Positions 904 to 37,139 of a stretch of DNA of 64,000 nucleotides are shown piece by piece. Each line of letters opens with the position of its first letter. Position 1 is the stretch's first letter. The notes under the pieces were generated by a model. That model was not told the origin of the DNA. It was given only the letters and a program-made list of their open reading frames with translations, and made no database searches. The translations under genes and the position numbers were made by a program. The stretch is from Thelephora terrestris (taxonomy: Eukaryota > Basidiomycota > Agaricomycetes > Thelephorales > Thelephoraceae): positions 248,001 through 312,000 of the forward strand of contig WIUZ02000009.1 in assembly GCA_015956445.1 (NCBI GenBank), given 5' to 3'.

Positions 904-2166
904 TCATGAGTCTGTGAAATCCGCCTCCAACACTACCGTTGCTTTCAACAGAACTTCCATGCGCATACCTTCACCCCTCCACCCCCACACTCTTTTTACA
1001 ACACCCACCGCTGTTGTCCCCGCCACTTCATCCCGCCTCTGAGGAGAGGAAGGCCCGTCGGATTCGAACTCTTTGGACATTGTCGTATTGTCAAAGGCGG
1101 TCCCTGGCTCTTCGCAACGAAGGTACATATCAGTGGATGTGACGTCAACTATAAACACAGACTCCAAGCGCGATGCGACTTGGCAGATGGTTTCTATCCG
1201 ATTGGATGCCTTCGCCTTGACAAAATCCACTGAATGCTGAATGGATTGGAACGACCCTGTAATCATCAGAGTATTCGCAACGTAGTTCGTGATCGAAGTG
1301 GAATCATAAGGTGACGAAGGTTTAGAGAGGTGGTTGTGAGTTAGGGATCTCCACCTGGCTGAGATTGCTTGCGCCTCTGCTACACATGAGTTGCGTCGCA
1401 ATGGTCCCGGGTGTGATGTGTACTTACCGGAGGTGGATAGGTGTTCATAAACAGACCTCAGTATTCCCAACTCCCCACCATCATCATGTCCGCGTCGCCA
1501 GCCTGATGTAATTTGTGCCGCAAGGTAACAGAGGCAAGACTGAACCAAGTAATTTACGGCTGCGGGGTCCAAGTTGAAGGCCCGATGCGTGAGGGTACGC
1601 CCGTAGAATTGCGAAAACGCATTGAGGGTCTCTTCGGTCATCACGACTCTAGTGGATTGCATCGAGACCAGCTTCTCCCATTCTTCAGTCAAGTTGGCCG
1701 CAGCTTGAAATATGTTCTCGTTCAGGTCACGGACGATACCCAACACCTCTGCCCCGGATAGGCGATCTGTAGTCGACAGAAAAGATTGTGCGCCGGAGAG
1801 TTCTTTCGTTCGAGCGGACAATAATTCCTTGGCTCGTGCGAGCTCGTCTTCCGCCGCTTGAATACGCTTGTCCCGCTTCTCCAAAGTTGCCTGACGAACT
1901 CTAGAGGTCTTTTGTATCTCGCGCTCCAATCTCGCAATCTGCTCCTTGGTCACTTTGTGCTTTCTCGCATACTTCTCCTTCGAAGTTCTCAGCCTGCGGA
2001 TTTCAACTTTTTGAGCGTCGATCCTGGCCCTCTGCCTTTCCACCAGGCCCCCTGCCGTTTTCTGTAGCCCCTCGTTTTCTTCAGATTCCACCGTTTCCTC
2101 CGCCTCTAAGAAGAGGAAGGATACTTGGGATTGTGTCTCCAGCTGCTCGGGATGGGGCAAGCGCAT
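904..2166 (-). CDS. Coiled-coil partner protein, subtype A (pair 1)
   Basis: The product is a protein of roughly 400 residues. An acidic N-terminus is followed by a long charged coiled coil (heptad-rich, about residues 25-115, rich in R, K, E and L). After it come the conserved block ELSGAQSFLSTTDRLS and VLGIVRDLNENIFQ, then a C-terminal domain with QAISARWRSLTHNHL. I recognise this as an unnamed family common in Agaricomycetes, and no biochemical role is established for it. The best ATG is at 2166 (MRLPHPEQLE), because the equivalent ATG is kept in pair 2 and in-frame codons further upstream are not ATG. One intron near 1373-1430 (GTAAGT..GTAGCAG) is inferred from the paralogue. The gene is divergent from the Hsp70-like gene at 2365 and 198 bases separate the start codons. 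Reading looks open throughout. Confidence 0.8.
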   Translation of the reverse strand: MRLPHPEQLETQSQVSFLFLEAEETVESEENEGLQKTAGGLVERQRARIDAQKVEIRRLRTSKEKYARKHKVTKEQIARLEREIQKTSRVRQATLEKRDKRIQAAEDELARAKELLSARTKELSGAQSFLSTTDRLSGAEVLGIVRDLNENIFQAAANLTEEWEKLVSMQSTRVVMTEETLNAFSQFYGRTLTHRAFNLDPAAVNYLVQSCLCYLAAQITSGWRRGHDDGGELGILRSVYEHLSTSGKYTSHPGPLRRNSCVAEAQAISARWRSLTHNHLSKPSSPYDSTSITNYVANTLMITGSFQSIQHSVDFVKAKASNRIETICQVASRLESVFIVDVTSTDMYLRCEEPGTAFDNTTMSKEFESDGPSSPQRRDEVAGTTAVGVVKRVWGWRGEGMRMEVLLKATVVLEADFTDS

Positions 2167-2364
2167 GAAGTATTCGTTCGACGGTGTGTAGAGGCACAGA
2201 GATGGGATGTGTAGAGGAAGCCAAATGAACACTACCCCCTAAATTGTAACGGATATCCTCAATCGCGTGGCGGCGTCTCCCTGATAGGAAAGTGTGGCGG
2301 GGTCGGTGGGACATATATAATCTTACCCTATACAGGCGCTGGTGTTCTGCGTTGCCGTTCCCTC
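2167..2364. promoter_or_regulatory. Bidirectional promoter of pair 1
   Basis: This 198-base gap lies between two divergent start codons. It contains AGTGTGGC at 2291-2298 and a TATA box (TATATAA, 2314-2320) about 45 bases before the Hsp70 ATG. The same element, spacing and TATA position recur in pair 2. No clear TATA is seen on the coiled-coil side. Confidence 0.6.
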
Positions 2365-4874
2365 ATGTCACCCTCACCTTACAACGGTACCTCCAGAAAG
2401 CTCGTTCTCGCGTTTGATATCGGCACCACGTACAGCGGAGCCGCATACGCGTTCCTTGACCCCGGACAAGTCCCACAAATCAACTCCGTCACGAAGTGAG
2501 TGCTACTATTATCTCACTGCACAACAACCATGGGGAACTGAAGACAGATACCTCGACAACCCGAATGTTGGGTCAGCGAAAGTCCCCTCAATCTTGTACT
2601 ACGATAGGAGGGGTAACTTCCGGGGTGTTGAGAACGGGAAAGGGCTCCAGGATGACGAAAGTCTCATCCAAATGCGATGGTTCGTAACACCATAACACGC
2701 TCATCCCCGTCGCTCACGGTCACAGGTGGAAGCTTCTGCTCGGACCCACAGAACCGCCTGCGGCACTGAAGGATCAGATGAGCGCAGACCTCCCGATGGG
2801 AAAGACGATAGTCGACATTTTCTCGGATTTCATTCGCTACCTATTCGATTCGACAAAAGCGCTGTTCATTTCCTCCGATCACAACGGAGAACACCGCTGG
2901 AACTCTGTATCTCGCAACATTGAGCTCGTGCTGACCCACCCCAATGGATGGGGCGGACCGCAACAAAGTCAACTCCGGACGGCGGCCGTCCGAGCGAACA
3001 TCGTCCCCGACACCCCAGAGGGACATGCCAGGGTCCACTTCGTGACGGAAGGGGAGGCGAGTTTCAACTTCTGTGCTACCCACACTCAGTCCGGTGAAAA
3101 CCTAAAGGTTTGGGATTGCTGCCTCTACTTACTACTATTATGTTTTCTGATCTACCGGTAATAGTACGGCGACAAGGTGTTGATTGTCGACGCGGGCGGC
3201 GGAACGATCGATATAAGTTCCTATGCGGTGACCAACCGTGGACCCCTACAAGTCGAGGAGCTGTTCCAGCCTGAATGTCAGTTGATCACCTCTCAAGTGT
3301 ATGTTAGATCATTGACACATTCCTGGAAAGGCTTGCTACACGGTGGAGAGTTCGTCACCGCGAGGGCAAGAGAAATGGCCTCAGGTAGGTTCAAATATAT
3401 TGGTCATTGGTCGCGCCTCCCGCTCAACCCTCACCAGAAAAACTGAAAAACTCGAGGTTTGACACCCCTGAAGACATCGCAGCTTTCGCCCAAAAATTCG
3501 ATGAAGGCTTGAAAAGGATATTTTCTGATGACAACGGAGCGCAGTTCGTCAAGTTTGGTTCTCCCAGAGACAATGACCCCGGACACGGTATCAAGGCGGG
3601 AAAGTTAACACTAACAGGGTGATCCACTGGTAACCTCCACCTCCCCATTCATTTCCGCTTACAGCCCCGCCTTCTCACAGGGCACAAGTGTCAAGACTTT
3701 TCGAACCTTCGATTCAGTCGACCGTCGATTCCATCCGGGCAAATTTCACAGAAATTCTTTGCATGAACTCGGTAGGTAGATGTAGGATCTCTCGACCTGC
3801 ACATCTGAAGACCTATGCCTAGTTCGCTTTCCTCGTTGGCGGATTTGCTTCGAGCCCGTGGCTTTCTGGTCAGCTTAATCAACGGCTTTCCGATCTTGGG
3901 TTGAAGTTTTTCAAGCCACAAACGAACACGTAAGAGTGGCTGTTCTACTCGCCGAAGCTTTACTTGATAATTCCCAGTGACAAAGCGGTCGCAGTAGGAG
4001 CGGTCTCGTTTTACATTAACCGTTTTGTGAAGGGACGCATTTCGAGATTCACATACGGTCACCCGTGCGCTATACTCTACATACCCTCCAACCCGGAGCA
4101 CACCAAACGCGAGCATAAAACCTTCATAAACCCTCTTGGGGGCAGATATGTCCCTGGTGCCTTCAAGAGCATGCTCCCAAAGGTTCGGTGTCAAATCGAT
4201 CCCATGTGATCTATCCTGCTTAAAGAGATGGCGTGGAATTATAGGGTTCCAAAGTCCTCGAAAGTCGAGAAATTCGGAAAACCACAGCTGTGATTTGTGA
4301 AGGGGACCCACCAACAGAAGTACGCACGCGAATCATCAAGTACGATGGCAATATAAGGGAACCAAAGTGGATGGATGTTGAACAAGGTAGGGCTTTCGGT
4401 TCCGTGGCACGGTTTCTACATCCGGCACTCATAATTCAAAAAGACAGGTTTGAGACTCTGTGCTATATTTCTGCTGACGTATCTGGGTCACCGTGTACGC
4501 TCAGACGTGGAAAATCTGGGAAAATGTGCTATCACCTGGAGTTGGATGTGGTGTTGTTAGTGGGCCTTACGGAACTAAAGGCACAGATCCGTTGGACCGA
4601 CTCCATAACTGTGCGTATTCACGTGGAACTTTCGTTAGACCGCCTTTACTGATTTCCTCGTCGCAAACGTAGGGGTTGGAGAAAAGGTAATCCTTCGCGC
4701 TTCGCACACGTTGTACTAGACTCTGAGCTAACGTGGATTCATGCGGTTCACAGCAGCGACGCTGTCATCGTGTACAATGACGCGTCAGAGAATAGTTACG
4801 CTGACCTGGGAAGGGTCAGGGTTCCCAGATTCACTCCCCCTCCCCGTTATGAAGATTTCGATCCGGATTGGTGA
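2365..4874 (+). CDS. Hsp70-like (HSPA12-type) ATPase, subtype A (pair 1)
   Basis: About 12 exons encode a protein of roughly 600 residues. The actin-fold ATPase signatures are all present. Phosphate-1 is FDIGTTYSGAAYAFLDPG near residue 17. The phosphate-2 loop is IVDAGGGTIDISSY near residue 220. The adenosine motif VGGFASSPWL lies in the exon near 3826-3930. The order matches the HSPA12 branch of Hsp70, which lacks the classical substrate-binding domain. Here the C-terminal region instead carries KYDGNIREPKWMDVEQ and LLVGLTELKAQIRW and ends in PPPRYEDFDPDW. Introns are short, for example 2496-2547 and 2680-2725. The gene is head to head with the coiled-coil gene ending at 904. The 5' half is nearly identical to the gene at 6559, while the 3' half differs clearly. 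Substrate and cellular role are unknown. Confidence 0.88.
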
Positions 4875-5097: not shown

Positions 5098-6227
5098 TTA
5101 TGAGTCTACGAAGTCTCCCTCCAACACCACTGTTGCTTTCAACAAAACTTCCACACGCAACTCCTCGCCCCTCCTTCCCCACACTGTTTTCTCAACGCCC
5201 ACTCCTGTTATCCCCGCCACTTTATCCCGCCTCTGAAGAGTGCATTCGAATTCCCTGGTCATTCTCGTGTCGTCAAAAGCGGTCCGTGGGGCATCGCAAA
5301 GAAGGTACATGTCACAAGATATGAGGTCCACCATAAACACAGACTCCAAGCGCGATGCGAGTTGGTAGACGGTTTCCAGTCGATTGAATGCGTTCGCCTT
5401 CACAAAATCCAGTGAATGCTGAACAGATTGGAATGACCCCGTGATCCACAGGACGTTTGCGATCTGTTGCACAATCGAAGTAGAATTATAGGACGACGAT
5501 GGCTCAGAAAGGTGGGCGTGGGTCAAGGATTTCCATCTAGCTGAGATTGCTTGCGCCTCTGGCATACGTAAGTTGTAAGTATTTCAGTGGCTGCTGCTTG
5601 TGACGAATACTTACCGGAGGCGGATAAGCGCTCGTAAACGGATCCCAGTATCTTTAACTTCCCAACATCATGCCCCCGTCTCCAGCTCGATGTGATCTCC
5701 ATCGCAAAGTAACAGAGGCATGACTGAACCAAGTAAGTCACGGCTGCGGGGTCCCGTTGGTAGGCTCGATCGACGAGGATCGGTCCGTAGAATTGCGAAA
5801 AATGAACGAGGGACTTTTCGTGTATTGTAAACCTGGTGGACCGCGCCAATGCCAGCTTCTCCCACTCTTCGGTTAAATTGGCCGCAACTTGGAACACGTT
5901 CTCGTTCAGGTCACGGACGATACCCAACACCTCTGCCTCGGATAGGCGATCTGTGGTCGACAGAAAGGATTGTGCGCCAGAGAGTTCTTTCGTTCTCGCG
6001 GACAATAACTCCTTGGCTCGTGCGAACTCGTCTTCCACCGTTTGAATATCCTTGTCCCGCTTCTCCAAACTTGCCTGACGGTCCCTGGAGGCCCTTTTAA
6101 CCTCGCGTTCCAATCCCACAATCCGCTCCTTGGCCTCATCGTACTTTCTCGCATACCTCTCCTTCGAAGTTCTCAGCCTGCGGATTTCAGCTTTCCGAGC
6201 GTCGATCGCGGCTGTCTGCCTCCCCAT
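5098..6227 (-). CDS. Coiled-coil partner protein, subtype A (pair 2), 5' end damaged or shortened
   Basis: This is a close paralogue of the gene at 904-2166, with the same coiled coil (MGRQTAAIDARKAEIRRL onward), the ELSGAQSFLSTTDRLSEAE block and a C-terminal domain (QAISARWKSLTHAHL). One intron near 5561-5615 has a clear GTAAGT donor and joins the two coding blocks as SASEAQAIS. The ATG equivalent to the paralogue's lies at 6348-6350 (MQFSHPGKLETRS). It is followed in frame by TAA at 6309-6311 where the paralogue has CAA, and the frame is otherwise conserved on both sides. Either translation starts at the next ATG (6225-6227), giving a protein about 40 residues shorter, or the copy is a young pseudogene. 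The pair partner at 6559 looks intact. Confidence 0.7.
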
Positions 6228-6350
6228 CAGGTCCTCTGTCGTTCTTCGCAACCCCTCGATTTCTTCAGGTTCCGGCGTTTTCCCCGTCTCTGAGACTGGG
6301 AGGGGATCTTAGGATCGTGTCTCTAGCTTGCCTGGATGGGAAAATTGCAT

Positions 6351-6558
6351 GACGTTCTCGTCCGATGGAGTGGAGGAGCAGTGAGATGGGTTGTGTAGAG
6401 AAAGCCGAACGAGAATTACACTGAATTACCTCCTAAATCATAACGGATATCTTCGATCGCGTGGCGGCGTCTCCCCGATAAGAAAGTGTGGCGGGTTCGG
6501 TGGGACATATATAATCTCACCACGTACAGGCGCTGGCATTCTGCATTGCCGTTCCCTC
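6351..6558. promoter_or_regulatory. Bidirectional promoter of pair 2
   Basis: This 208-base gap lies between divergent start positions. AGTGTGGC is at 6485-6492 and TATATAA at 6508-6514, in the same order and spacing as in pair 1. Most of the Hsp70-proximal half is nearly identical to 2240-2364. Confidence 0.6.
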
Positions 6559-9062
6559 ATGTCACCCGCACCTTACAACGGTACCTCCAGAAAGCTCGTT
6601 CTCGCGTTTGATATCGGCACCACGTACAGTGGAGCCGCATACGCATTCCTAGACCCCGGACAAGTCCCACAAATCAACTCTGTCACGAAGTGAGTGTTAC
6701 TATTATTCCCCCAGCACGACAATTACGAAGAACTGGAGACAGATACCTCGATAACCCGAATGTTGGGTCAGCAAAAGTCCCCTCAATCTTGTACTACGAT
6801 AGGCAGGGTAACTTTCGGGGCGTTGAGAACGGGAAAGGGCTCCAGGATGACGAAAGTCTCATCCAAATGCGATGGTTCGTAACACCATAACACGCTCATC
6901 CCCGTCGCTCACGGTCACAGGTGGAAGCTTCTGCTCGGACCCACAGAACCGCCTGCGGCACTGAAGGATCAGATGAGCGCAGACCTCCCGATGGGAAAGA
7001 CGATAGTCGACATTTTCTCGGATTTCATTCGCTACCTATTCGATTCTACAAAAGCGCTGTTCATTTCCTCCGATCACAACGGAGAACACCGCTGGAACTC
7101 TGTCTCTCGCAACATCGAACTCGTCTTGACCCATCCCAATGGATGGGGCGGACCGCAACAAAGTCAACTGCGGACGGCCGCTGTCCGAGCGAACATCGTC
7201 CCCGACACCCCAGAGGGACATGCCAGGGTCCACTTCGTGACGGAAGGGGAGGCGAGTTTCAACTTCTGTGCTACACACACTCAGTCCGGTGAAAACTTGA
7301 AGGTTTGGGATTGCTGCCTCTGTTTGCTACTTATATTATGTTCTCTGACCTACCGGTAATAGTACGGCGACAAGGTGTTGATTGTCGACGCGGGCGGCGG
7401 AACGATCGATATAAGTTCCTATGCGGTGACCAACCGTGGACCCCTACAAGTCGAGGAGCTGTTCCAGCCTGAATGTCAGTTGATCACCTCTCAAGTGTAT
7501 GTTAGATCATTGACACATTCCTGGAAAGGCTTGCTACACGGTGGAGAGTTCGTCACAGCGAGGGCAAGGGAAATGGTCTCAGGTATGTTCAAACATATTG
7601 CCCGTCTGTGCACCTCCCGCTCATCTCTCACCAGAAAAATTGAGAAACTCAAGGTTCAATACCCCTGAAGATATCGCAGCATTCGCCCAAAAGTTCGATG
7701 AAGGCTTGAAAAGGGTATTCTCTGAAGACAACGGAGCGCAGTTCATCAAATTTGGTTCTCCGAGGGACAATGATCCCGTACACGGCATCAAGGCGGGAAA
7801 GTTGGCATTGACAGGGTAACCCACTGGTCACCTCCACCTCCTCATCTATCTCCACTTATATCCCCGCCTACGCACAGGGCACAAGTGTCAACGTTTTTCG
7901 AACCCTCGATTCAGTCCACGGTGGATTCAATCCGTGCCAACTTTACGGAAATCCTTTCCATGAACTCGGTTCGTAGCTTGGGGATATCTTGACTTGCGCA
8001 TCTGAGGGTCCACGCATAGTTTGCCTTTCTCGTTGGCGGGTTTGCTTCGAGTCCGTGGCTGTCTGGTCAGCTTAATCGACGGCTTTCCAATCTTGGATTG
8101 AAGTTTTTCAAGCCAGACACGAACACGTGAGAGTGGCTGTTCTCCACGTCGAAACTTTACCTGATGATTTTCAGTGACAAAGCCGTCGCAGTTGGGGCGG
8201 TCTCGTTTTACATCAACCGCTTTGTCAAAGGACGCCTTTCAAGGTTCACGTATGGCACTCCATGCTCTAAATTCTACAGGCCCACCGACCCAGAGCACGC
8301 CAAACGCGAATACAAAACGTACTTAAACGTTCTCGGGAACAAGTATGTCCCCGATGCTTTCATGAGCATGCTCTCAAAGGTTTGGCGTCGAATCATTCTC
8401 ATGAGATCTACCCTGCTCAAGGGGACGTCATGCAAACGCAGGGCACCAAGGTTCTCGAAAACCGAGAAATCCGGACAACGATAAATGTGATTCGCGAAGG
8501 GGCCCCAGCAACCGACATATACGCGGGAATCGTCAAGTATGATGGCAAGATAAAGGCGCCGGAGTGGATGGATGTCGAACGAGGTAGGACCCTTAATTTC
8601 ATGGCGCGATTTCTGCATCCGACATTCACAATCCAAAAGACAATTTTGAGACTCTGTGCCATGTTTCCGCTAACATTTCCGAGTCACCATCCACGCTCAG
8701 AGTTGGGAAAACCGGGAACATGTGCTACCACCGGGAGTATGAGGTGGTTCTATTAGTGGGCCTTACGGAACTGAAGGCACAGATCCGCTGGACCGACTCT
8801 CTAACTGTGTGTATTATTGTGCGACTCTCGTTGGGCTGCCTTTGCTGATTTCCTCATCGCAAATCTAGGGGTTGGAAAAAAGGTGACCTCTCGCGCTTTA
8901 CATGCGATATTGTACTTGAGGCTCATGCGAATTTGTTCGGTTCACAGCAGCGACGCAGCTATCGTGTACACGTCAGAGAACGGTTACGCTGACACGGGAA
9001 GGGTCAGGGTCACCAGCTCCACTCCCCCTCCGCGTTACGAAGACTTCGATCCGGATTGGTGA
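6559..9062 (+). CDS. Hsp70-like (HSPA12-type) ATPase, subtype A (pair 2)
   Basis: The architecture matches the gene at 2365. FDIGTTYSGAAYAFLDPG lies in exon 1, VDAGGGTIDISSY in the exon after 7370, VGGFASSPWL near 8030, and an LLVGLTELKAQIRW exon near 8750-8805. The last exon starts at about 8950 (SDAAIVYTSENGYAD) and ends PPPRYEDFDPDW with TGA at 9060-9062. The first seven or so exons and their introns are close to identical to the pair 1 gene. The C-terminal exons differ in many codons, for example PTDPEHAKREYKTY against PSNPEHTKREHKTF. That fits a gene-conversion tract limited to the ATPase half. I see no premature stop in the exons read. The role is unknown; it is presumably expressed together with the coiled-coil neighbour. 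Confidence 0.87.
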
Positions 9063-9751: not shown

Positions 9752-12700
9752 TCAGCGTACAGGCGGCATCGAGTAGCGAATGACGGTGTCGTACGGAACT
9801 ACGTTCTTCTGAATGTACGGGCCCATGATTTCAGCGTGTTTGCGGAGGTATCCCTTGAAGGCGTCGCTTTGCCAACGGCCCTTGGCCTTGACAACGTCGA
9901 AGGGGACACCTCGTAGGAGGTACTCTAGAGTTGAGCCGACGCGAATTCCATGGCCTTGCAATTTGGGAAGATTGTTGTCCTTGATGATCTTGTTGATTCG
10001 TGTTAGAAAGATGTTCTTCGTCATGGGCCGCATAGTGTTCTCGTGCTTGTAAGCAAAAAGGTGGCTGTCTTTGGGCGGGTTGTTGATCCTTAGATGGTTT
10101 AGGAGAGCGCTCTTCGGGTCGGTGACGCCATCCTGCTCGGCCCAAAAGATGTCTTCACCTTTTTCTCTGGCGGCCTTGGTCCAGGGTATGAAGATGACGG
10201 TCTGTTTGAGCTCGTTCCTGTCAGGTACGTCATGTTTGACGTCTGAGACTTTGACGTGCGTCTCGGGATTGAAGCCGTCCAATTTTGGCACGGTTACTTC
10301 CCCGAGTCGTGCGGTTCCCCAGAAGGCGGTTGTTAGACAGGCAAGAATGGCGGCGTCCTTCGGGTCGTTCGTTTTCAGGATCTGGCAGATGGCGGTGAGG
10401 ATGTCCATGGTCCAAGGTTTTTTCTCCTTTTTCCTCGACTCTTTGGGCGAAAGCTTGTTACCCGCCTTAAATAGCGCTTCTATTTCATTGGAGTTTAGGT
10501 CCCATGTGATGCCATGTATGATGTGCCAGGCTCTGATGCCGTAGACGTAGTTCCTTATTGTGGACCCGCCGTATGTGCCAACGCAGTCTGCTATGAAGCT
10601 GGCGAGGACTGTTGGGTTGACGGGTGATCGATGGTCTTCGTCGATGTTTCTGAGGTCGCAATAGTCGTGGAAGGCGCCCAGACCGGTTCCGTACGTGGCT
10701 CGTGTGGTGGGGGCAAAGGCGTCTTCTAGAACGGCCTTGATGCGTTCTAGGTCTCGGTTTTGGAGGTTGGTGGGACGTCCTTTTATGTCCAGTGTGTTCC
10801 GCGCGTTGCTGGGTGTCCATATGCGGAGACGTTCGGGTATGGCGCAGTCGGGTCGCAGGGGTGAGGGTTTTATCGGGGCTAGCTGAGCACTGTCTCTGGC
10901 TGCAACGTGGTCTTGCGACACGAGAGATGCGCTTATTGCTTCTACGATCTTAGAGCGCTTGCGTTGCGGGATCTGACTGATCGTCCGCACTGCGGTTCGC
11001 TTGGTGCCTCCTGAACCGTTCGAACTGGGGAATGGGGAGTTTTGGTTCTGGAGGAACGCCGTCAGAAGAAGATTGCTCGCAAGGATGGCGGGGGGCATCG
11101 AAATCGATGACAAAGGGTTCGAGCTCCTTCGGGAGTTCGATTTGGGGGAGGAGGAGGTGTCTGGGGGGGTATATGCCTCTCGAGGGACCGTCTGCTGGGT
11201 TCTGTGAGGTGTTGACGTATCTTGTGGTGAGAACTGTGTCGTGTTTTTCCAGTAGGCTGTGAATTCGTTTGAAGACACGATTGGTTTCGATGTTTCTGCT
11301 CCTGCCTGTCCACCATCCTTCGACGACCCCGTTGTTGTCGCCGTGAATTTTGATACCTGCGAGAGACTGATGTTTGAGAATAAGTCTGACGAGGAGTTCC
11401 ATTGCAACGGCTTCGGCCCATCCGATGTCACGGCCTTGGCTTTTCCAGCCTGGGAGAAGTCTCCATGCTCGCCATTTGTTGCCGAGGATAACGCCAAGGC
11501 CAGTGGATGAACTGGCGTCCGAGTAGCCATGGACGTCTGTGATCTGTCGGTCGCCTGGGATCTCTCGAGAGAGGGATGGGCGTGAGAACGTTCTCTGCCA
11601 CCAGATCAAGTCTTCGTTGAGAAGTTTGGGTGCATGACGTGGCGTGAATGGGCGCTCGTGAAACGAGGCCATCATTTTTCGAAGATGGTGAGGTACGCTC
11701 TCCCTTGCGGGACAATGTGACAGGCGTATAAGAGTTTTCCATACAACTTCTCCGTGTCCTCTAAGGTGTGCGCTGGCCTTTGCCTCCATTCCATTATTGC
11801 CTGTATGTACTTTTCCTTCTTCGGATTAGGTAGAGCGACCCTCTTTTGGTCTAAGTCCCATGACAGGCCGGCGAAAACTATTCTTGAGCTAAATCATAAT
11901 GGCACGTCTTTGGAGTGTTCCCAGGGGATTCCCAACGGTCTGGTGGTTTCGTCTATTTCACTGAAGCCGTAGGGGTACGTCTGACCCTCGTCTTCCTGCT
12001 CGCGGATTAGTTGCAGGGGGAAGGCGAGACTTTCTGCGAAATGTTCAGCGCCCGTTTCGGCGAGTGTTTGGCCCTTAAACCATAGGCGCCCTCCGGTCTG
12101 AATCTCCCCTCCGTTGAGTTCAAGGGTTTTTCGGTTGCGCTCTCGTTGATCATTGTATGCATCAATGGCTTCCTTTGGGATTCTGATAAAAATGAAGTCG
12201 TCTACCCATTTGAGTATCGGGCCGATTCCCTTTGCCCGGAGGATGTCTGCGAGAGCGTCCCCGAAGAGGCCAAAAAGTCCCCCTGCGGTTGCGCACCCAA
12301 AACTGTTGCTCGTGTTGAGCGCGAACTGATCCTGATCGTTTGAGATGCGGATTACCACCCCAGGCCATTGATTTTCGTGCAAGGGTATGATCCTGTACGC
12401 TTCGGCAATGTCCCTGGTTGCTGCTTGCGAACCTGGGGGAAGGTTTCTTATCAAGGTGCACATTGTCTTGAACGTGCCCCACGTGCATGGGAATTGGTCC
12501 GAGTTGAGAGAGGCATTAATCGAGGGAATTGGGTGGTTGTTGTGCGGATGAGATAGGTTCTGTATTAGACGATATTTGCCTGGCTTTCCGGCTTTTGGAA
12601 CAAGCGATAGGGGAGAGGATTGGAAAGGGCCTATTTCGGCTTCGAGTTCCTCCCTCGAAAAGGGGCCGAGGTATCTTCCTTTGTCAAATTCGACTTGAAT

Positions 12701-25375: not shown

Positions 25376-25843
25376 GAGAATAGGTTCACTGGCCTTAAGG
25401 GTCATCCTGTTTTGTCTCTGTGGCGATTTAAGGTTTTCAACTTTTCTCTAACCTGTACCACAGTTGAACGACTGTCTAACACTCCGTTTGGCGCCTCCGG
25501 CGGAATGTAAAGAATGCACGCGCAGACCAGATGTGTACTTACGGAAACGCCACGGAGAACGTGCCACTCACCGACTGTCGGCGTCCCTTTCAAGAGTGAC
25601 AAAGACAGGTTACCAGCAGAGTACGGGCAAGAATTACCCATAGGGCACTCACAAACGATTCCCGGAAGTGCGTATGTGATTAAAGCGGTCAAGTAGAAAA
25701 CATCGCGCAGTACAAATCGATGGTCATTGATACAACTACTTGCTTGAACAGATAACGATCCTTCAAGGCGTTCGATAATTGGATCGGGGTGTGATGGGCG
25801 ATACCACTGGTACGCGTCTAGCGTCGGAACTGCGACCACATCC

Positions 25844-26870: not shown

Positions 26871-27049
26871 TGTTGAGAGCCAACGGCGTGTTAGTCAGAT
26901 GAATGAAAACAGGTCTGAGGAGTGGCGAAAGGTTGTCCGAGCGATTATCAGCCCGAGCGGGTGCCAAACAAAGGTAACTAGTACGGCCCGGGAGTGATCG
27001 GGGCGGAGGAATGTGCGAAATGCTAGAATTTTCAACACTACCTCTTGTT

Positions 27050-27245
27050 TCATGTTTCCGGAGCATCGTCAGAGGCAGGAAGAAGAGAAGAAGAAGTATC
27101 TACCAAAAATTCATCAACCCTTTCAAAACCAATATTGTTGGTGTGATACCGAAACAATTGATGACCCAAACTCTTAGTCAAGATGTCGGTGTGATTATCT
27201 TCAGTGGGCACGCGCCGCATGTCGATTTTTTGGTGTTCGACCCTA
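27050..27245 (-). mobile_element. Ty1/copia-type LTR retrotransposon fragment (fossil)
   Basis: A minus-strand stretch resembles the end of a copia-type RNase H domain: RRVPTEDNHTDILTKSLG, like the V/IPT..N.AD..TK.L motif of the family. Only this small piece of the element is present; it is an old or truncated fossil. It borders the inverted PARP-like piece, so it may mark or have caused the rearrangement. Confidence 0.6.
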
Positions 27246-27557
27246 TGTGTTCCATCATGAAGACTTCGTTCGACCTCTCTTTCTTTTCGTGGAGGACCAA
27301 TTTCGGGAGATTCGGAGCGGGGATCTACGCCTCTTCGACGTCATCAAAGTCTGTGCGGCTCACGATCTCCACTCGGCGCATCGGAGCTACTGTCTGAAGG
27401 ATTTGGTCGGGTTTTCTCAGGTCGGACTCATATTCACAGAACGACTGCACCTCCAATTGGAAGGCCATGTTGCTAAACAACGTGGTCGTCGGGGAGGGAC
27501 ACGAAACCATTGTCGACGATAGATCTCTGACTGAGCCACCTGCTGGTTACGATTCTG
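27246..27557 (+). pseudogene. Inverted PARP-like fragment, catalytic part
   Basis: On the plus strand, opposite to all other PARP-like copies here, it reads SIMKTSFDLSFFSW, TNFGRFGAGIYASSTSSK and PPAGYDS. It stops abruptly near 27557, where minus-strand PARP sequence resumes. It has neither start nor end of the gene. The neighbouring copy in the opposite direction makes an imperfect inverted repeat with 26030-26340. Confidence 0.75.
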
Positions 27558-27559
27558 GA

Positions 27560-28297
27560 TCGCACGGACCTCGGGGCATCCCTCGTCGTGCAGCCATTTC
27601 TGTCAGAACTGGAATTCAACTTGGAGCATGCGTCAGGTACTCCGTCAGACACTACGAAATCCCACTGGTTGACTGACCGCTCTTGTACCTGTTGTGGTCT
27701 CCAGGAATTTCGGCAATCATCGGCGCCTCGCCAATGGCCTCGAGATAACAAGGTCGGCAGAAGGGGAGTGAACCGCCTATCGGAGCCTTGCGACACAATA
27801 TGCAACCGTTTTCTCCCAGCCTGTGCATTGTTGACACGTCGTCATGAGGTAGGACGGGGGACGAGATACGCACTGTTTGTGCCTTTTGCTAAAGTGTTTT
27901 CGGGTGATTCCGTCTTGGTTGGCGTGCGCGAGAGATACGCACCCAGGAGTCTGACAGATCTGGGTTGAGGAAGCAACCAGCTGTATGAAAGATGCATTGC
28001 CTCTCGTGCTTGATCCGCGGGAGACCCTTGGGACACCTGGTAGGCCTCGCAATATCTTGGGCGCAGCACATTCATTGGAACAAAAGCGGTAGTAGAGTCC
28101 GGTGATTGGATCCCGCGCTTTCAGCTCGGTGCCGCACTCCTGCGAGGACGCGGATGAGGAGGGTCGATGGTTGTAACCTCTGCAAAAAATTTGGCCTTGT
28201 ACTTACGATGCAGAGTTAGAGGGGCCGACGAGTCAAAGGACCGACCTGGGCCTCGGTACGGACCGAAGGAGGATGCGTTGGAAGATTGCCAGTGCAT
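27560..28297 (-). pseudogene. PARP-like gene fragment, 5' part with zinc fingers
   Basis: The start is ATG at 28295-28297 (MHWQSSNASSFGPYRGP). The Cys-rich fingers follow as in the gene at 22453 (CQTPGCVSLAHAN, KHFSKRH in place of KYCSKRH, GCILCRKAPIGGS). The finger cysteine is therefore changed to Phe in KHFSKRH. The sequence ends at the junction with the inverted fragment, before the catalytic core. It probably encodes at most a short finger-only protein. Confidence 0.72.
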
Positions 28298-28654
28298 GGT
28301 TAGAATGCTGGTCCTTAGACTGTGAACGTAATTTAACGCGAACGAGTAAAGGGTGTAGCAACTAAAACTGTCTTGGGACGCGAAAATAACAGAGCCCGGC
28401 CGATCCAAGCCGGTTGAGTCATCAACTTGATCATCAACCATTCTTTGTTGTTACCGCGTGTCTACCAACGATACGGCCAACCACACCCAGTACGAGGAGG
28501 CCCAGATTTACAGAGGATTTCAAGGCGAGCCTCGCTTCACCTCTCCGCCTCCAAGCGCGGTACCCGGAAATTACCGAACAGTCTGATCTCCCAAGCTGGA
28601 CTCGCTGAGAAACTTGTTTGCTTGATCGTTACAATGACATCCACTACACTACCC
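28298..28654. other. Spacer, duplicate of 23952-24307
   Basis: It carries the conserved 3' flank of coiled-coil genes (CCCAAGCTGGACTCGCTGAG near 28590). No gene is visible. Confidence 0.5.
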
Positions 28655-29985
28655 CTACTTCTGAGCTTCGTGGCCTTCATCTCCAACAACGTCCCTCTCC
28701 AAAACCACTTTGGTCTTCAACAGAATTTCCACACGTCGAGTGTCACCTGATCCCCCAGATATGCTTTTCCCGACTCCTACTTCCGTCGTTCCCATAACGT
28801 TACTACGCGTCCCAGGAGAAGAGCCACTGTCGGCCCCAAACTCACTGGTCATCCTCCTAGCATCGAACACAGTACCTGGGGCTTCGAATAGCAGAGACAT
28901 GTCGCTGGATACGACCTCCACCATGAACGTATACTATAGGTGCATGGCAAGTCGGGTCATTGATTGTATTCCTTCGAGGGCCACGGCTTGGACGAATTCG
29001 ATCGAGTGCTGGGGAGACGGGAATGATCCCGTCTCGTAAAGTGTGCTTGCCAGTTGCTCAACCAATGGGCTGGAATCAGGCGAGGGTGGGACGAGGTTGC
29101 TGTGGGCCAACGACCTCCATCTGGCTGAGATCGCTTGCCCGCCTGTGACACGTGAGTGAAATATTACCCGGGGTGGGAGACATGATGCTCACCTGATATG
29201 GACAAGTTTTCGTGAACGGATTTGAGGGCCGCCAACCCCGAGTGATCACTCCAGCGCGAAGTCATCTTCACTGCTTGTGAACAGAAGCACGATTGAAGCA
29301 AAAATGTCAAGCCCGTGAGGTCTCGGTTGCGGGCTAGCTGGATAAGGATCGGACTGTATGGTAAAGAAGCGGGGTCGATATCCATTTGACTGGCTGCTTG
29401 CAACGGCTCCAATTTCTCCCATTCGTCGGTTAAGCTGACTGCGACCTGGAAGATATTTTCGTTAAGATCGCGTACGATGCTCAACACTTCCATTTCGGAT
29501 AGGCGGTCTGTCGTGGATAAGAATGTGCGGGTCTCAGAAAGTTCTGCTGATCTCGCGGCCAAGAGTTCTTCTGTCCGTTTCAACCGTTCTTCTACCGCCC
29601 GTGCCTGTCGTGCCTGTTCTTCCAAAATTCCCTGGTGGAGGCTACGCATCTTCTCGATCTCCTGGCACAACCTTGTGACTCGATCTTCCCTGCGCTTGCA
29701 CGCCGCCATTAAATTTTCTTCGACTTTTCTTAACCTTCCAACCTCGACCCTCTCCCTGTCAAGCTGCCCTTTCAAGCCTCCCACATCTCTTCGCAACCGC
29801 CTCACCTCTTCGGATTCATCCCCTCCTCTTTCCCCCTCCTCTCGCGGTCTCCTAGTCGGTCTGGGTGTCGAAGTATGACCATCGCGGGGTCTTGCTGGCA
29901 GCTCGACCGCACTCTCGAGTGGGAGAGGGAGGGAGTTGGTGAGGCCGGCCTCGAGATTGGAGCTGACTGCGGACCTTTTACTCAT
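28655..29985 (-). CDS. Coiled-coil partner protein, subtype B (pair 4), with internal stop
   Basis: The start is ATG at 29983-29985 (MSKRSAVSSNLEAGLTN), preceded by GCCACACT as in pairs 3 and 5. A coiled coil (REEGERGGDESEEVRRLRRD onward, about residues 50-150) leads to ELSETRTFLSTTDRLSEME, SIVRDLNENIFQVAVSLTDE and, after an intron near 29155-29200, the C-terminal domain. In that domain TAG at 28934-28936 replaces the GAG found at the same place in the fragment at 24308-24937 (HLEYTFMVEV). Translation would lose about the last 90 residues. The downstream sequence is still well conserved, so the change is recent or the shortened protein is tolerated. Confidence 0.75.
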
Positions 29986-30198
29986 AGTGTGGCTGGCAGG
30001 TCGTAACTGGAAGATGTCAAAGGCATCCATTCGAAGCCTTAAGTACGTTTTCCTCGTTCTTGATGCCATCAACCTTGGTGTGGCTTGCCTCGGTCTTTCA
30101 TTTCCGTCCTGTATGTAAAGGAAAAAGTGTGGCTGGACTCGAGGCAATATTTAAAGTCTCTGAGGTTTTTAAATCCTCTTTGTCCTCCATCCCCCACC
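29986..30198. promoter_or_regulatory. Bidirectional promoter of pair 4
   Basis: This 213-base gap has AGTGTGGC at 29986-29993 against the coiled-coil ATG, GGTGTGGC at 30077-30084 and AGTGTGGC at 30126-30133. A TATTTAAA box (30148-30155) lies about 45 bases before the Hsp70 ATG. Confidence 0.62.
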
Positions 30199-32615
30199 AT
30201 GGACATAAACCGCGCTCGATACTCTGGCCCCTCGCGAAAGCTCGTCGTCGCTCTCGATATCGGGACTACCTTCAGTGGTGCTGCGTACGCCTTCCTGGAT
30301 CCTGGGGAGGTCCCCCGGATTCAATCTGTCACAAGGCGAGTTTTCCATGCATTCGCTAATCTGGTAACAATCAGTGACGAATGAGAGGTAGGTATCTAAA
30401 CAACCCGAACCCTGGGTCCGCAAAGGTTCCCTCCATATTGTACTACGATCAAAATGGGAAGTTTCTTGGTGTCGAGAACGGCGTCGATTTCCAGGATGAC
30501 AATCTCCTGAAGATGAGATGGTAGGAGACAGTGTTAAGTTTGACTGCAGGGTACTGACAATACATCAGGTGGAAGTTGCTTCTCTCACCTGCAGAGCTGC
30601 CTGTTTCGATAAAAGATCAGATGATCTCAAAGCTCCCCAGGGGGAAAACCATCATCGATGTATACGCAGATTTTATGACCTACCTTTTTGAGTCGACCAA
30701 GGCACTATACAAGTCCTCGGAACCGAATGGGGAGCTTAGATGGGAGACCGTATCCAAAAACATTGAGCTGGTATTGACCCATCCGAACGGGTGGGGCGGT
30801 CCACAACAAACGCAGCTGCGAACTGCTGCCGTCAAGGCGGGTATTGTTCCCGACACTCCTACCGGACATTCCAGGGTTCAATTTGTGACTGAAGGCGAAG
30901 CAAGTTTCAGCTTCTGTGCAACCCGTACCCAGGCGGGTAGAAACCTCAAGGTCAGGTACACCACCTTTCACAGAACGGGTTTATTGATATCTTCGCAGAC
31001 TGGTGAACAAGTCTTGATCATAGATGCAGGAGGTGGAACCATCGATATAAGCACCTACAAAGTCCTCAGCAACACGCCATTAAAGGCTGAGGAGCTGTAC
31101 GAATCTAAGTGTAAGTGAGATCAACCATAATGACTCGCCGTTTGACAACATCTACTCCAGGCTTGTACCAAGGCGGAGAGATCGTTACGGCGAGGGCAAC
31201 AGAGAAGGTCAAAGGTAATATTCCATGCTCCACCCACAGACAGATCACTCAACCTCCACCCAGGGATGTTGACAGGTTCTAGGTTCAATACCTCCGAGAA
31301 TCTGGCAGCGTTTTCCCAGAGGTTCGACGATGGAGTAAAGAAGGTCTTTTCGAATAACCAGGGGGCTCAATACGTCAAATTTGGCTCCCCGAGGGATAAT
31401 GACCCCAACTATGGAATCAGGGCCGGAAGGCTGACGTTGACAGGGTAGGTTTCCCCGCCCGTTCTGCTTACAAGTTGACACTAAAACTTCCGTGCATACA
31501 GCACTCAGGTCGCTGAGTTCTTCGAACCGTCCATTCAGTCTGCTGTGGATTCTATCAGGGATAACTTCAAGTATCGCCTTACCACCAATTCGGTCCGTAT
31601 ACCCTGACAATTTCGAACAACCCTCCTGATTATTCGCGAACAGTTTGCATTCCTCGTTGGTGGGTTTGCTACGAGCCCCTGGTTATCCGAACAACTTCAA
31701 CAGCGGCTTTTGAGCATCGGATTTCAATTTTCCAAGCCAGAAATGGATACGTGAGTGATCTGTTTCAGTTCTCAAAGCAGACCGTGACCGTGCCCGTCGC
31801 ACAGAAATAAAGCCGTCGCTATTGGGGCGGTTTCATACTATGTTGATCATTTCGTAACAGGGAGGGTCTCCAAATTCACGTATGGTGTGCCATGCATCAT
31901 CCGATACAATCCCTCGGATGTAGAGCATTCCCGGCGCGCACACAAGTTGACAACTGACGCGATTGGGGAGAAATATGTTCCAGACAAATTTCAAACAATG
32001 CTGTCGCGGGTTTGTCGCGTGGAACCTTCACTTGGCTTCACGGATTGAACTCTATTGTTGACAGGGCACCAAGGTCCTGGAGGACAGAGAAATTCGGCAC
32101 GCCTTCTACTTGGAGTCCGAGGGCACTCCTCCCCAGGAGGCCTCACCAAGAATCGTCAAATACACGGGGTCTCTGGTTTCCCCCGGGTGGGAGGACGTAG
32201 AAAAAGGTATGATACTGCCTTTCTTGGTATTTTGCGATGGATGCTTAGAGCCGAAAAGAAAAGTTCGAAACATTGTGCTACGTCAAGGCCGACATCTCTG
32301 CCGCTCCGTATACATCAAGATACGGAACGAACGGAAGAATAGGTTACCGACGGGACTTCGAGGTGATCTTACTTGTAGGTCTCACAGAGCTCAAGGCACA
32401 AGTCTGTTGGACCGACTCCGCAACCGTAAGTGCATACACGCCTCCTATATCCACCGTATCGATTTCTCACGCCATCCCGACTTCTGTGTATGTAAAATCC
32501 AGAGGACAGAAAGAAGGTTGGTAATATCCCATTCTGAGCGTATCCTCTCCGTCTGAATCTGGTTGCTAGGAGCAGTGCCGTGGTTGTCTACGACAACCCC
32601 TCGGAGAGGACCTGA
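30199..32615 (+). CDS. Hsp70-like (HSPA12-type) ATPase, subtype B (pair 4)
   Basis: The start is ATG at 30199 (MDINRARYSGPSRKLVVALD). Motifs are ALDIGTTFSGAAYAFLDPG, THPNGWGGPQQTQLRTAAV, IIDAGGGTIDISTY near 31018, FGSPRDNDPNYGIRAGRL and VGGFATSPWLSEQL near 31660. The C-terminal exons show LESEGTPPQEASPRIVKYTG, LLVGLTELKAQVCW and the last exon SAVVVYDNPSERT with TGA at 32613-32615. About 12 exons with introns of 45-65 bases. Its divergent neighbour has a nonsense codon, while this gene looks intact. It is closest to the gene at 34711. Confidence 0.86.
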
Positions 32616-33236: not shown

Positions 33237-34495
33237 CTACTTATGAGCTTCACTGACTTCATTTTCTACAACGTCCTTCTCCAAAACAACTTTGGTCTTC
33301 AACAGAATTTCTGCACGTTGGGTGTCACCTGATCCCTCGGATATTCTTTTCCCAACCCCTACTTCCGTCGTTCCCACAACATTACCACGCGTCCCAGGAG
33401 GAGGAAAGTCACTGTCGGATCCAAACTCACTGGCCATCCTCGCTTCATCGAACACCGTATCGGGGGCTTCAAATAGAAGAACCATGTCGCTGGACACGAC
33501 CTCCACCATGAACGTGTACTCTAGGCGCATGGCAAGCTGGGTCATTGATTGAATCCCTTTGAGAGCCACGTTTTGAACGAATTCAACTGAGTGCTGGGGG
33601 GACGAGAACGATCCCGTCCCGTAAAGGGCGCTTGCCAGTTGCTCAATCAACGGTTCAGAACCAGGCGGGGGTCGGGGGAGGTGGCTGTAGGCTAGTGACC
33701 TCCACCTGGCTGAGATTGCTTGCCCGCCTGTGACAGGTGAGTGGAATATTACTTATGGCGGGAACCATGATGCTCACCTGATGCGGATAAGCTTTCGTGG
33801 ACGGATTTGAACGTCGCCAACTCCGGGTGGTTACTCCAGCGCGAAGTTATCTCCACTGATTGCGAACAGAGGCACGACTGGAGCAAAAATGTCAAACCCG
33901 TGGGGTCTCGGTTGCGGGCTAGCTGGATAAGGACCGGACTGTATGGTGAAGAAGTGGGACTGATATCCGTTTGACTGGTTGCTTGCAACGGCTTCAATTT
34001 CTCCCATTCGTCGGTCAAGTTGACTGAGACCTGGAAGATATTTTCGTTAAGATCGCGTACGATGCTCAACACTTCCATTTCGGATAGGTGGTCTGTCGTG
34101 GACAAGAATGTGCGGGTCTCGGAGAGCTCTGCTGATCTGGCGTCCAAGAGTTCCTCTGTCCGTTTCAACCGCCCTTCCACCGCCCGTATTCGATCGTCCC
34201 TGCGCGTGCCCGACGCCATGAGTGTTTCTTCCACCTTTCTTAACCTCACAATCTCGACCCTCTCCCTGCCAAGCTGGCTTTTCAAGCCCCCCACATCTCT
34301 TCGCAACCGCCTCAACTCTTCGGATTCACCCCCTCCCCTTTCTACCTCCTCTCGCGACCTTCTAATCGGTCCGCGTCTGGAAGTATGACGATCCTGGGGT
34401 CTTGCTGGCGACCCAACCACACCCCCGAGTGGGAGAGGGGGGGAGTTGCTGAGACCGGGCTCGGGATGGGAGTCGACCACGGAGTTTTGACTCAT
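33237..34495 (-). CDS. Coiled-coil partner protein, subtype B (pair 5)
   Basis: The start is ATG at 34493-34495 (MSQNSVVDSHPEPGLSNS), directly preceded by GCCACACT. The coiled coil (GGGESEELRRLRRDVGGLK onward) is shorter than in pair 4, which has an extra stretch after RREDRV. It is followed by ELSETRTFLSTTDHLSEME, SIVRDLNENIFQVSVNLTDE, then an intron near 33735-33780 and the C-terminal domain (GQAISARWRSLAYSHL, SFSSPQHSVEFVQ, LLKTKVVLEKDVVENE). The frame is open to the stop at 33237. This is the best-preserved subtype B member, and a suitable reference for judging the damaged copies. Confidence 0.84.
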
Positions 34496-34710
34496 AGTGT
34501 GGCTGGCAGGTCGTAACTAGAAGATATCAAAGGCATTTATCTGAAGCCTTAAGTACGTTTTCCTCGTCTCTGATGCCATCAGCCTCGATGTGTGGCTGGC
34601 TTCGGTTTCGTCTCCGCACTGTATGTAATGGGAAAAGTGTGGCTGGACTCGAGGCAATATTTAGAGTCTCTTCAGTTTCAGACCCTGTCTGTCGTTCTCT
34701 GTCTCACATC
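34496..34710. promoter_or_regulatory. Bidirectional promoter of pair 5
   Basis: This 215-base gap has AGTGTGGC at 34496-34503 against the coiled-coil ATG, GTGTGGC at 34590-34596 and AGTGTGGC at 34636-34643. A TATTTAGA box lies near 34658, before the Hsp70 ATG. Confidence 0.62.
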
Positions 34711-37139
34711 ATGGACATACCCCGCATCCGTTACTCTGGACCCTCGCGAAAACTTGTCGTCGCTCTCGATATCGGGACTACCTTCAGTGGTGCTGCGTAT
34801 GCCTTCCTGGATCCTGGCGAGGTCCCTCGAATCCAACCTGTCACAAGGAAAGCGTTTCTTGTGTTCATTGATCTAGTACCAAACAGTGACGGATGAGCGG
34901 TAGATATCTAAAAAACCCGAACCCTGGGTCCGCCAAAGTCCCCTCCACATTGTACTACGACCAAGATGGAAATTTCCTGGGCGTTGAGAACGGGGTTGAT
35001 TTCCAAGACGATGACTTTCTGAGGTTGAAATGGTAGGAGGTTACTACGTTCAACCGTGCAAGGCACTGATGGTACCTTAGGTGGAAGTTACTTCTCTCGT
35101 CCACAGAACTGCCTATTGCAATAAAGGAACAGATGATAGCAGAACTCCCTAGGGGGAAAACCATCATCGACGTGTATGCAGACTTTATGGGCTACCTCTT
35201 TGAGTCGACCAAGGCACTATTCAAGACCTCGGAACCGAATGGGGAACTTAGATGGGACTCCGTATCTGAAAATGTGGAGTTGATATTGACCCATCCAAAT
35301 GGGTGGGGCGGCCTACAACAAACCCTGCTGAGAAGCGCTGCAGTCAAAGCGGGTGTTGTGCCTGATACCCCCGCTGGACATTCCAGCATTCACTTTGTGA
35401 CAGAAGGCGAAGCGAGCTTCAGCTTCTGCGCAACCCGTACCCATGCAGGTAGGAACCTCAAGGTAAGTTATGACATCCCCCCAGAACTGGTTTATCGATA
35501 CGTTCACAGCCTGGCGAACAAGTCTTGATCATAGACGCGGGCGGTGGAACCATCGACATAAGCACCTACAAAGTCCTCGACAACACGCCACTACAAGTCG
35601 AGGAGTTGTATGAATCCAAGTGTGAGTGGGATCAGGCGGGATCATTTTGTCGTTTGGTAACATTCGTTTCAGGCTTGTACCAAGGCGGTGAGATCGTTAC
35701 AGCAAGGGCAACGGAGATGGTCAAAGGTACGTTCTCGCGCTTCACTCGCAGACAGATTACACAACTCCCACCAAGGGGCGTGGAGTGGTTCCAAACTCAA
35801 TACCTCTTGGAATCTTGAAATGTTTTCCCAGAGGTTCGACGAGGGTCTAAAGAGGGTCTTTTCGGACGACCACGGGTCTCAATACGTCAAATTTGGTACT
35901 CCAAAGGAGAATGATCCTAGCTGTGGAATCAAGGCCGGGAGGTTGGCGTTGACTGGGTAAGTCACCGCTCGCTCCGCTTATAATCTGTCACCCAAACTTT
36001 CATTCGTACAGCGCTCAAGTCGCTGAGTTCTTCGAACCCTCGATTCAGTCTACTGTGGACTGTATCAAAGATAACTTCAAGCATCGTCTTTCTGTCAATT
36101 CGGTTCGTGCTCCCTGACGGTTTGGAACACCCTTGATTATTCGCGAACAGTTTGCGTTCCTTGTTGGTGGATTTGCCACGAGCCCGTGGTTGTCCGAACA
36201 ACTCCAGAGACAGCTTTTGGATATCGGATTCCAGTTTTCTAAGCCAGAGATGGATACGTGAGTGATCTGTCCCCCGTGTTTGAGTCGGTCATGACGGTGA
36301 TCATCGCACAGAAATAAAGCTGTTGCCATTGGAGCAGTGTCATACTATGTTGACCATTTTGTGACAGGCAGGGTCTCAAAATTCACGTACGGTGTGCCAT
36401 GCGAGACCCAATACAATCCCTCGGATCCCGAGCATATGCGGCGAGCGCATAGGTTAACTACCGACGCCATGGGGACGAAACGCGTTACTGGCGGCTTTCG
36501 CACCATGCTGTCGCGGGTTTGTCACGTTGAACCTTCCCTCAGCTCCTTGAACTAATTGCTGTTCGTCCGCAGGGCACCAAGGTCCTGGAGGACCGAGAGA
36601 TTCGGCACACCTTTTACATGGCGTCCGAAGGCGCTCCTCCACAAGAGGCACTGCCAAGAATTGTCAAATACACGGGGTCTCTGGTTTCCCCCGAGTGGGA
36701 GGACGAAGAACAAGGTATGGTATATGCCTCTCTCGACACCACTATGTGATAGGTGCTTAGCGCCGAATAGAAAATTTTGCGACGTTGTGCCATGTCAAGG
36801 CAGATATCTCCGCCGCTCCCCACACATCAAAACGTCCAAAACGCGGAAGAATAGGTTACCGGCGGAATTTCGACATGATCTTACTTGTAGGCCTCACAGA
36901 GCTCAAGGCACAAGTAAGCTGGGTTGACTCTGCCACTGTAAGTGCACACATGCCACCTGCTGAGTCCCGCGTACCTGTTTCTCACCCCACCCCGACCTCC
37001 ATAAATTCAGGGGAAAGAAATGAGGTTGGTGGTATCCCGTCTCAAGTGTATCCCCCGTCTGAAATCAGTTGTTAGGAGCAATGCCGTGGTCGTCTACGAC
37101 AACCCCTCGGAGAAGACCCGAGGGGATGTCTCTATCTGA
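34711..37139 (+). CDS. Hsp70-like (HSPA12-type) ATPase, subtype B (pair 5)
   Basis: The start is ATG at 34711 (MDIPRIRYSGPSRKLVVALD). Motifs are ALDIGTTFSGAAYAFLDPG, LTHPNGWGGLQQTLLRSAAV, IIDAGGGTIDISTYKVLDN near 35526, GTPKENDPSCGIKAGRLALT, and VGGFATSPWLSEQL near 36166. C-terminal exons include ASEGAPPQEALPRIVKYTG, LLVGLTELKAQVSW and the final SNAVVVYDNPSEKTRG with TGA at 37137-37139. About 12 exons. It is paired with the coiled-coil gene at 33237, the only subtype B pair besides pair 3 in which both partners look intact. Its 3' end converges with the TMEM184-like gene. Confidence 0.87.

Follow-up and report, generated by a model that had tools for sequence, protein, structure and literature searches.

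What keeps a coiled-coil gene and an ATPase gene head to head through repeated duplication? The question is raised by a 64,000-base stretch of the Thelephora terrestris genome (contig WIUZ02000009.1, positions 248,001 to 312,000 of the forward strand), called the window below, with positions counted from its first base. Six plus-strand ATPase genes (AT1 to AT6) and the 3′ end of a seventh (AT0) form an array in the window, and five of the ATPase genes stand head to head with a minus-strand, two-exon coiled-coil gene (CC1, CC2, CC3, CC5, and CC6). The distances from start codon to start codon are 198, 208, 218, 213, and 215 bases in pairs 1, 2, 3, 5, and 6, respectively. An earlier note on this DNA had described five head-to-head pairs, and our homology-guided models returned the same five figures. 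We favor, at a probability of about 0.4, the reading that ATPase and adaptor form a co-regulated unit whose copies evolve by birth and death and in which the two proteins presumably interact.

Layout of the array

All tblastn matches of four query proteins (E up to 0.01) were confined to positions 7-36937 of the 64,000 bases, and the clustering of the array in the window is more than chance. Gene models were built by a splice-aware script guided by paralogues and curated by alignment; they are homology-based and use no transcripts. A gene finder run without homology guidance failed on the ATPases, and the versions before curation retained introns or skipped exons. Each of the AT1 to AT6 models has 13 exons, and all six contain a 14-base microexon, picked among candidates by conservation. 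Short GT-AG introns are a eukaryotic mark of the window. The array comprises the following features.

About 1 to 700, plus strand: AT0, a seventh ATPase gene of which the window edge leaves the 3′ end (tblastn 7-469; stop placed by eye)
904 to 2166, minus strand: CC1, coiled-coil gene, 403 amino acids, one intron (1377-1427), intact
2167 to 2364: intergenic promoter 1, 198 nucleotides; AAAGTGTGGC at 2289, TATA-like box at 2314
2365 to 4874, plus strand: AT1, putative Hsp70-superfamily ATPase gene, 13 exons, intact; microexon 4673-4686
5098 to 6350, minus strand: CC2, coiled-coil gene; stop at codon 14 from ATG 6350, with ATG 6227 opening a 357-amino-acid frame
6351 to 6558: intergenic promoter 2, 208 nucleotides; AAAGTGTGGC at 6483
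6559 to 9062, plus strand: AT2, ATPase gene, intact; microexon 8869-8882
14636 to 15951, minus strand: CC3, coiled-coil gene, 417 amino acids, intact
15952 to 16169: intergenic promoter 3, 218 nucleotides; AAAGTGTGGC at 16094, second GTGTGGC 1 base from the CC3 ATG
16170 to 18591, plus strand: AT3, ATPase gene, modeled with GG as first-intron donor; microexon 18462-18475
18950 to 19105, minus strand: CC4 relic, at most 51 recognizable codons (tblastn)
19566 to 21968, plus strand: AT4, partnerless ATPase gene, frame intact; microexon 21859-21872
24278 to 24942, minus strand: relic, duplicated 3′ end of a coiled-coil gene
24939 to 25311, plus strand: relic, duplicated 3′ end of AT4
28655 to 29985, minus strand: CC5, coiled-coil gene, in-frame stop in exon 2
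29986 to 30198: intergenic promoter 5, 213 nucleotides; AAAGTGTGGC at 30124, GTGTGGC also at 29987 and 30078
30199 to 32615, plus strand: AT5, ATPase gene, first intron GC-AG; microexon 32503-32516
33237 to 34495, minus strand: CC6, coiled-coil gene, 402 amino acids, intact
34496 to 34710: intergenic promoter 6, 215 nucleotides; AAAGTGTGGC at 34634, GTGTGGC also at 34497 and 34590
34711 to 37139, plus strand: AT6, ATPase gene, modeled with GA as first-intron donor; microexon 37011-37024

Origin, decay, and selection of the modules

Maximum-likelihood trees were built from codon alignments of both families. The coiled-coil tree has the topology (1,2),(3,(5,6)), the ATPase tree has the same topology with AT4 joining (1,2), and every node in both trees received an ultrafast-bootstrap support of 100. 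Between the clades, synonymous sites are nearly saturated (dS 1.6 to infinite). Because the two trees agree, they indicate that the modules are old copies of one ancestral head-to-head pair that was copied whole, and orientation and spacing therefore count as one independent event, not five. The earlier note had argued for co-expression from the fixed orientation and spacing; this argument falls, as module copying yields the same arrangement, and shared regulation finds its support instead in the invariant AAAGTGTGGC of otherwise diverged spacers. AT1 and AT2 match in every column of introns 2 and 4 (46/46 and 54/54 columns, within the tracts 2548-3276 and 6743-7474), and their other eight introns are 69%-87% alike. 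We infer gene conversion between modules from these identical introns together with the disagreement in dS between partner genes, detailed below.

The array also decays: two partners carry stops, two ATPases have unusual splice donors, and one intact ATPase is partnerless. In CC2, the stop lies at codon 14 from the ATG behind the 208-base spacing, and the next usable ATG, at 6227, opens 357 residues. The in-frame stop in exon 2 of CC5 is absent from the duplicated fragment at 24.3 kb. The first ATPase intron begins with GT in AT1, AT2, and AT4; in the three clade-B models, the donors are GG at 16307 (AT3), GC at 30336 (AT5), and GA at 34848 (AT6). GC splice donors are a known rare type. Judged by stops and splice donors, pair 1 alone is clean. 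The five-module repeat described by the earlier note holds for layout and spacing, but the modules differ in intactness (stops in CC2 and CC5, unusual donors in AT3 and AT6). Two further genes of that description were recovered. The sixth ATPase gene with a relic partner is AT4, whose neighbor CC4 leaves a best tblastn trace of at most 51 codons at 18950-19105 (E 3e-06) within the 974 bases from the AT3 stop to the AT4 start; the seventh, cut at the window edge, is AT0, with tblastn matches at 7-469 and its 3′ end at about 1-700.

Self-BLAST of the window aligned 21535-24942 with 24939-29289 at about 90% identity over most of their length, with an extra segment, 26865-27557, in the second. The two matches overlap by 4 bases (24939-24942). 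The simplest reading of 21535-29289 is that 3.4 kb were duplicated in tandem, with one breakpoint falling within an ATPase gene and the other within a coiled-coil gene, which would account for the 3′-end relics of both genes at 24278-25311. The same region holds a repeat of about 310 bases at 22640-22947, 26031-26336, and 27246-27557, the third copy being inverted and 89%-93% identical to the other two.

Rates of evolution were compared between copies by omega, the ratio of nonsynonymous (dN) to synonymous (dS) divergence. Among the ATPases, dS was finite in 11 of 15 pairs, and omega in these was 0.10-0.19; nine of ten coiled-coil pairs gave 0.22-0.48. The two highest coiled-coil values, those of CC1/CC2 and CC5/CC6, cover possibly untranslated parts of CC2 and CC5. 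These values, obtained from the coding sequences, show both gene families to be under purifying selection. The ATPase part behind the nucleotide-binding domain (NBD) had an omega 1.5-4.4 times that of the NBD. The bootstrap interval of this ratio lay above 1 in four of six non-independent pairs, touched 1 in AT5/AT6, and included 1 in AT2/AT4. In CC1/CC2 and in CC5/CC6, dN equaled or exceeded dS over the first 60 columns of the alignment.

Spacers and the shared promoter element

The exact 10-mer AAAGTGTGGC occurs in all five spacers, 75-77 bases before the ATPase ATG. A TATA-like box follows on the ATPase side, starting 23-26 bases past the start of AAAGTGTGGC, by a pattern defined after the alignment had been inspected. 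Identity between spacers was compared with identity between introns of the same modules. The comparison covered three of six cross-clade pairs (1-3, 1-5, and 2-6), in which spacers were 42%-44% identical and introns 39%-46%; within clades, spacer and intron identities were 83 versus 80% (1-2), 54 versus 52% (3-5), and 82 versus 68% (5-6). The longest word common to all five copies of any of ten introns was 4 bases, the introns being about 40 and the spacers about 210 bases long. As the spacers have diverged like introns between clades and yet AAAGTGTGGC was kept in all five, neutrality does not explain the conservation of the promoter. A shuffle test of the spacer element (0/20,000) disregards the kinship of the copies, and the intron comparison is the fairer control. 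On these grounds, shared regulation of the pair is likely, since the element is invariant in spacers otherwise as diverged as introns.

The distribution of related words was also determined. The core GTGTGGC occurs 14 times on both strands of the 64 kb; ten of these occurrences fall inside the 1,052 spacer bases, all ten on the plus strand. All eight exact occurrences of the 8-mer AGTGTGGC lie in spacers (1.63 expected; 0 of 100 shuffles gave as many). A 12-mer scan allowing two mismatches returned 24 matches versus 16.9 expected, which is not clearly over chance (7 of 100 shuffles gave as many). Modules 3, 5, and 6 carry an extra GTGTGGC copy at the coiled-coil start codon, which is missing there in modules 1 and 2, and the partnerless AT4 has a two-mismatch version of the element. 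Since AAAGTGTGGC is placed by the ATPase start and a copy on the coiled-coil side is found only in modules 3, 5, and 6, the element may serve the ATPase alone, or the ATPase more than its partner. A search of the spacers for the strict two-unit heat-shock form found no GAAnnTTC or TTCnnGAA in any of the five.

The two proteins, their possible roles, and known systems

The ATPase profile, built from AT1, AT2, AT3, AT4, and AT6 (AT5 was excluded from the alignment), matched three DnaK chains in PDB (E 0.0032-0.01) over profile positions 216-406, the nucleotide-binding lobe; its fourth and last match was an unrelated prefoldin (E 0.045). Single uncurated ATPase models gave no match at the cut-offs used. 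PF00012 (HSP70) was matched by four of five scanned ATPases, at best with E 0.0011 and under the Pfam gathering score; for the first member the score was 17.7 bits versus a gathering score of 20.6, and the alignment stopped at position 368 of the 599 of the profile. The chaperone model PRK11678 was matched at E of about 0.01 by all five. By NBD profile similarity, weak and over the expected lobe, the protein is probably a member of the Hsp70 superfamily. It does not qualify as a canonical Hsp70, scoring below the PF00012 threshold and having no match to a substrate-binding domain. Its nearest subfamily is presumably HSPA12. In all six aligned ATPases we found DIGTT, GGGTID, and LVGG, corresponding to three of the five Hsp70 motifs given in PMC12692333. 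The second motif of that source, EPxAA, is unmatched: the corresponding site, placed by eye, reads EGEAS in all six. The HSPA12-like ATPase of the earlier note is therefore upheld as Hsp70-like, through profile matches below the Pfam cut-off; the HSPA12 part of the name is putative and draws on motifs ascribed to that subfamily, along with the three motifs from PMC12692333.

For the coiled-coil protein, the AlphaFold model is weak (mean predicted local distance difference test [pLDDT] 59.9, predicted template modeling score 0.43). It contains a long helix of about 99 residues (35-133), with pLDDT 85-92 over residues 51-110, followed by a helical middle and a C-terminal part below 60 in which a beta hairpin is predicted with low confidence. 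A keratin coiled-coil match covers 54-136 (E 8.8e-05). The predicted helix and this match agree with the coiled-coil assignment, a long helix with coiled-coil character. A known fold was sought with Foldseek, which returned 0 matches at E <= 0.001 (best 0.1). The C-terminal domain was searched in four of the five genes, CC5 being omitted because of its stop. Against PDB up to E 10, its single match was a CsgD-type regulator (E 0.6); against Pfam, the single match was DAZAP2 (E 0.03, one of four members), with no chaperone-cofactor family. Neither match is credible. The coil and beta-hairpin layout had prompted the candidate of a GrpE-like exchange factor, for which hhalign against a single GrpE, with four controls, gave no support; PF01025 (GrpE) reached E 0.23 at best, in the coil of CC3.

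Under the favored reading, one head-to-head pair, joining a divergent Hsp70-superfamily ATPase to a coiled-coil protein whose C-terminal domain is an orphan, would have been duplicated whole several times, and the array would now evolve by birth and death. The two proteins would be co-expressed from their shared promoter, and the coiled-coil protein would serve the ATPase as its dedicated adaptor or co-chaperone. It may dimerize through the long N-terminal helix, and its C-terminal domain may present a client or dock on the nucleotide-binding lobe. The complex would switch with the binding and hydrolysis of ATP, and the faster-evolving C-terminal part of the ATPase would set the target of each copy. 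Because several copies are being lost, the advantage may lie in the changing set of copies rather than in any single one.

A number of observations weigh against this reading. Two of the five coiled-coil partners, CC2 and CC5, have an in-frame stop. AT4 has an intact frame, yet its neighboring partner is a relic; its pairwise omega is 0.17-0.18 against AT2 and AT1, the relic neighbor notwithstanding, a value that averages over the time before and after the loss of the partner. Partners disagree in the dS of their recent splits (0.32 for AT1/AT2 versus 0.43 for CC1/CC2; 0.60 for AT5/AT6 versus 0.28 for CC5/CC6), and ATPases 1 and 2 are nearly identical as proteins in their 5′ half, whereas CC1 and CC2 differ, a pattern expected from gene conversion. 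AAAGTGTGGC is positioned relative to the ATPase start, with a copy beside the coiled-coil start only in modules 3, 5, and 6. GrpE would be the natural candidate for a coiled-coil protein that works with an Hsp70, but the hhalign comparison with one Escherichia coli GrpE gave a probability of 0.1, and the controls RecN, Ffh, NadK, and RimM gave 0.1-0.2.

The main rival is inherited linkage, which we consider rather unlikely. The head-to-head order would have arisen by chance and been carried along by tandem copying, the proteins would work apart, and the sole role of the orientation would be a compact promoter. The single independent origin of the pair, the intron-like divergence of spacers in the three cross-clade pairs compared, the persistence of AT4 alone, and the placing of the conserved element by the ATPase all agree with it. 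However, five of six complete ATPase genes keep their neighbor at 198-218 bases despite near-saturating divergence between the clades, and both families are constrained. The spacers of modules 5 and 6 are also more alike (0.82) than their introns (0.68), as either constraint or gene conversion would yield.

Two rivals remain. A stress-chaperone module, in which a lineage-specific Hsp70 with its own co-chaperone is induced by heat or other proteotoxic stress, would suit the Hsp70-type NBD; we regard it as improbable, as the five spacers lack the strict heat-shock form searched, the PF00012 alignment ends at 368/599 and so includes no substrate-binding-domain match, and neither a match to the one GrpE examined nor, among the C-terminal-domain Pfam matches, a chaperone-cofactor family was found. 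About as little credence goes to a self/non-self or conflict module, with the ATPase as recognition switch and the coiled-coil protein as signaling or toxic arm of a diversifying tandem set. Such a role would fit the faster rate of the C-terminal part of the ATPase, the birth and death of tandem copies that leaves relics and stops, and a dN that reaches or exceeds dS over the initial 60 columns of CC1/CC2 and CC5/CC6. Yet whole-gene omega is well under 1, no effector domain was found, and the five ATPases scanned had no match in PADLOC, which covers prokaryotic systems. The fast N-terminus may moreover reflect disorder; that of CC2 precedes the likely start codon and may go untranslated.

Other features of the window were noted. 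Between modules 2 and 3, minus-strand open reading frames at 9752-14168 resemble, by eye, a DIRS-type tyrosine-recombinase retroelement (gag-like, reverse transcriptase, RNase H, and tyrosine recombinase); they had no credible Pfam or PDB match. A fungal protein kinase lies at 61725-62450 (PF17667, E 1.1e-10), of a family often expanded in mushrooms. ARAGORN reported a tRNA-like candidate with a four-base anticodon at 47417-47498.

Both array families are abundant in mushrooms. Pattern searches of viral_contigs (both families) and genome_contigs (ATPase only) gave 13, 42, and 43 matches and confirmed no relative; these collections are viral and prokaryotic and thus uninformative on mushrooms. 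Among the matches listed from the open PMC literature, judged by titles and abstract starts, no account of the ATPase/coiled-coil pair appeared. The array partner is, we assume, akin to an Agaricomycete coiled-coil family, frequent in mushroom genomes, whose core reads LNE-IFQ-AA and whose C terminus ends in VVL; that family is not known to be paired with an Hsp70-like gene. Likewise, HSPA12 genes are not known to have been reported beside a divergent coiled-coil gene.

The array ATPases share with HSPA12 (Hsp70-12) a divergent Hsp70 NBD with DxGTT, GGxT, and LxGG and many-exon genes, but they read EGEAS at the EPxAA site. According to PMC2266713, human HSPA12A/B have 12 coding exons and form the most diverged human Hsp70 group, with homologues in vertebrates only as of 2008. 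The Hsp70 expansion of bivalves (orthogroup OG10) amounts to 68.1 genes per bivalve versus 4.4 in others, and the passages on it do not name HSPA12 (PMC8382680). With canonical Hsp70 (PF00012) the array ATPases share a partial match over the second NBD lobe, but at E 0.0011 at best and under the gathering score. A survey of Lentinula edodes that searched with PF00012 at p<0.0001 recorded six HSP70 (PMC9858218); array-type ATPases could escape surveys of this kind.

The DnaK-GrpE system likewise joins an Hsp70-type ATPase to a protein whose N-terminal part is a long coiled coil and whose C-terminal part holds a beta hairpin, the layout of GrpE; in the array partner the hairpin is predicted by a low-confidence model. 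In contrast to GrpE, the partner has about 400 amino acids with a helical middle, and its sequence shows no resemblance to the single GrpE it was aligned with. Should the pairing prove to recur among fungi, two functionally uncharacterized fungal families would gain a partner and with it a functional handle, and the promoter element is a concrete, testable sequence. At its boldest, and with a low probability, the locus would represent a two-component system of fungi not described before, in which one bidirectional promoter with its own element drives an HSPA12-like ATPase together with a dedicated coiled-coil adaptor whose fold is new. In such a diversifying array, the ATPase C-terminal part and the adaptor N-terminus would set recognition, analogous to NLR repertoires and unrelated to them.

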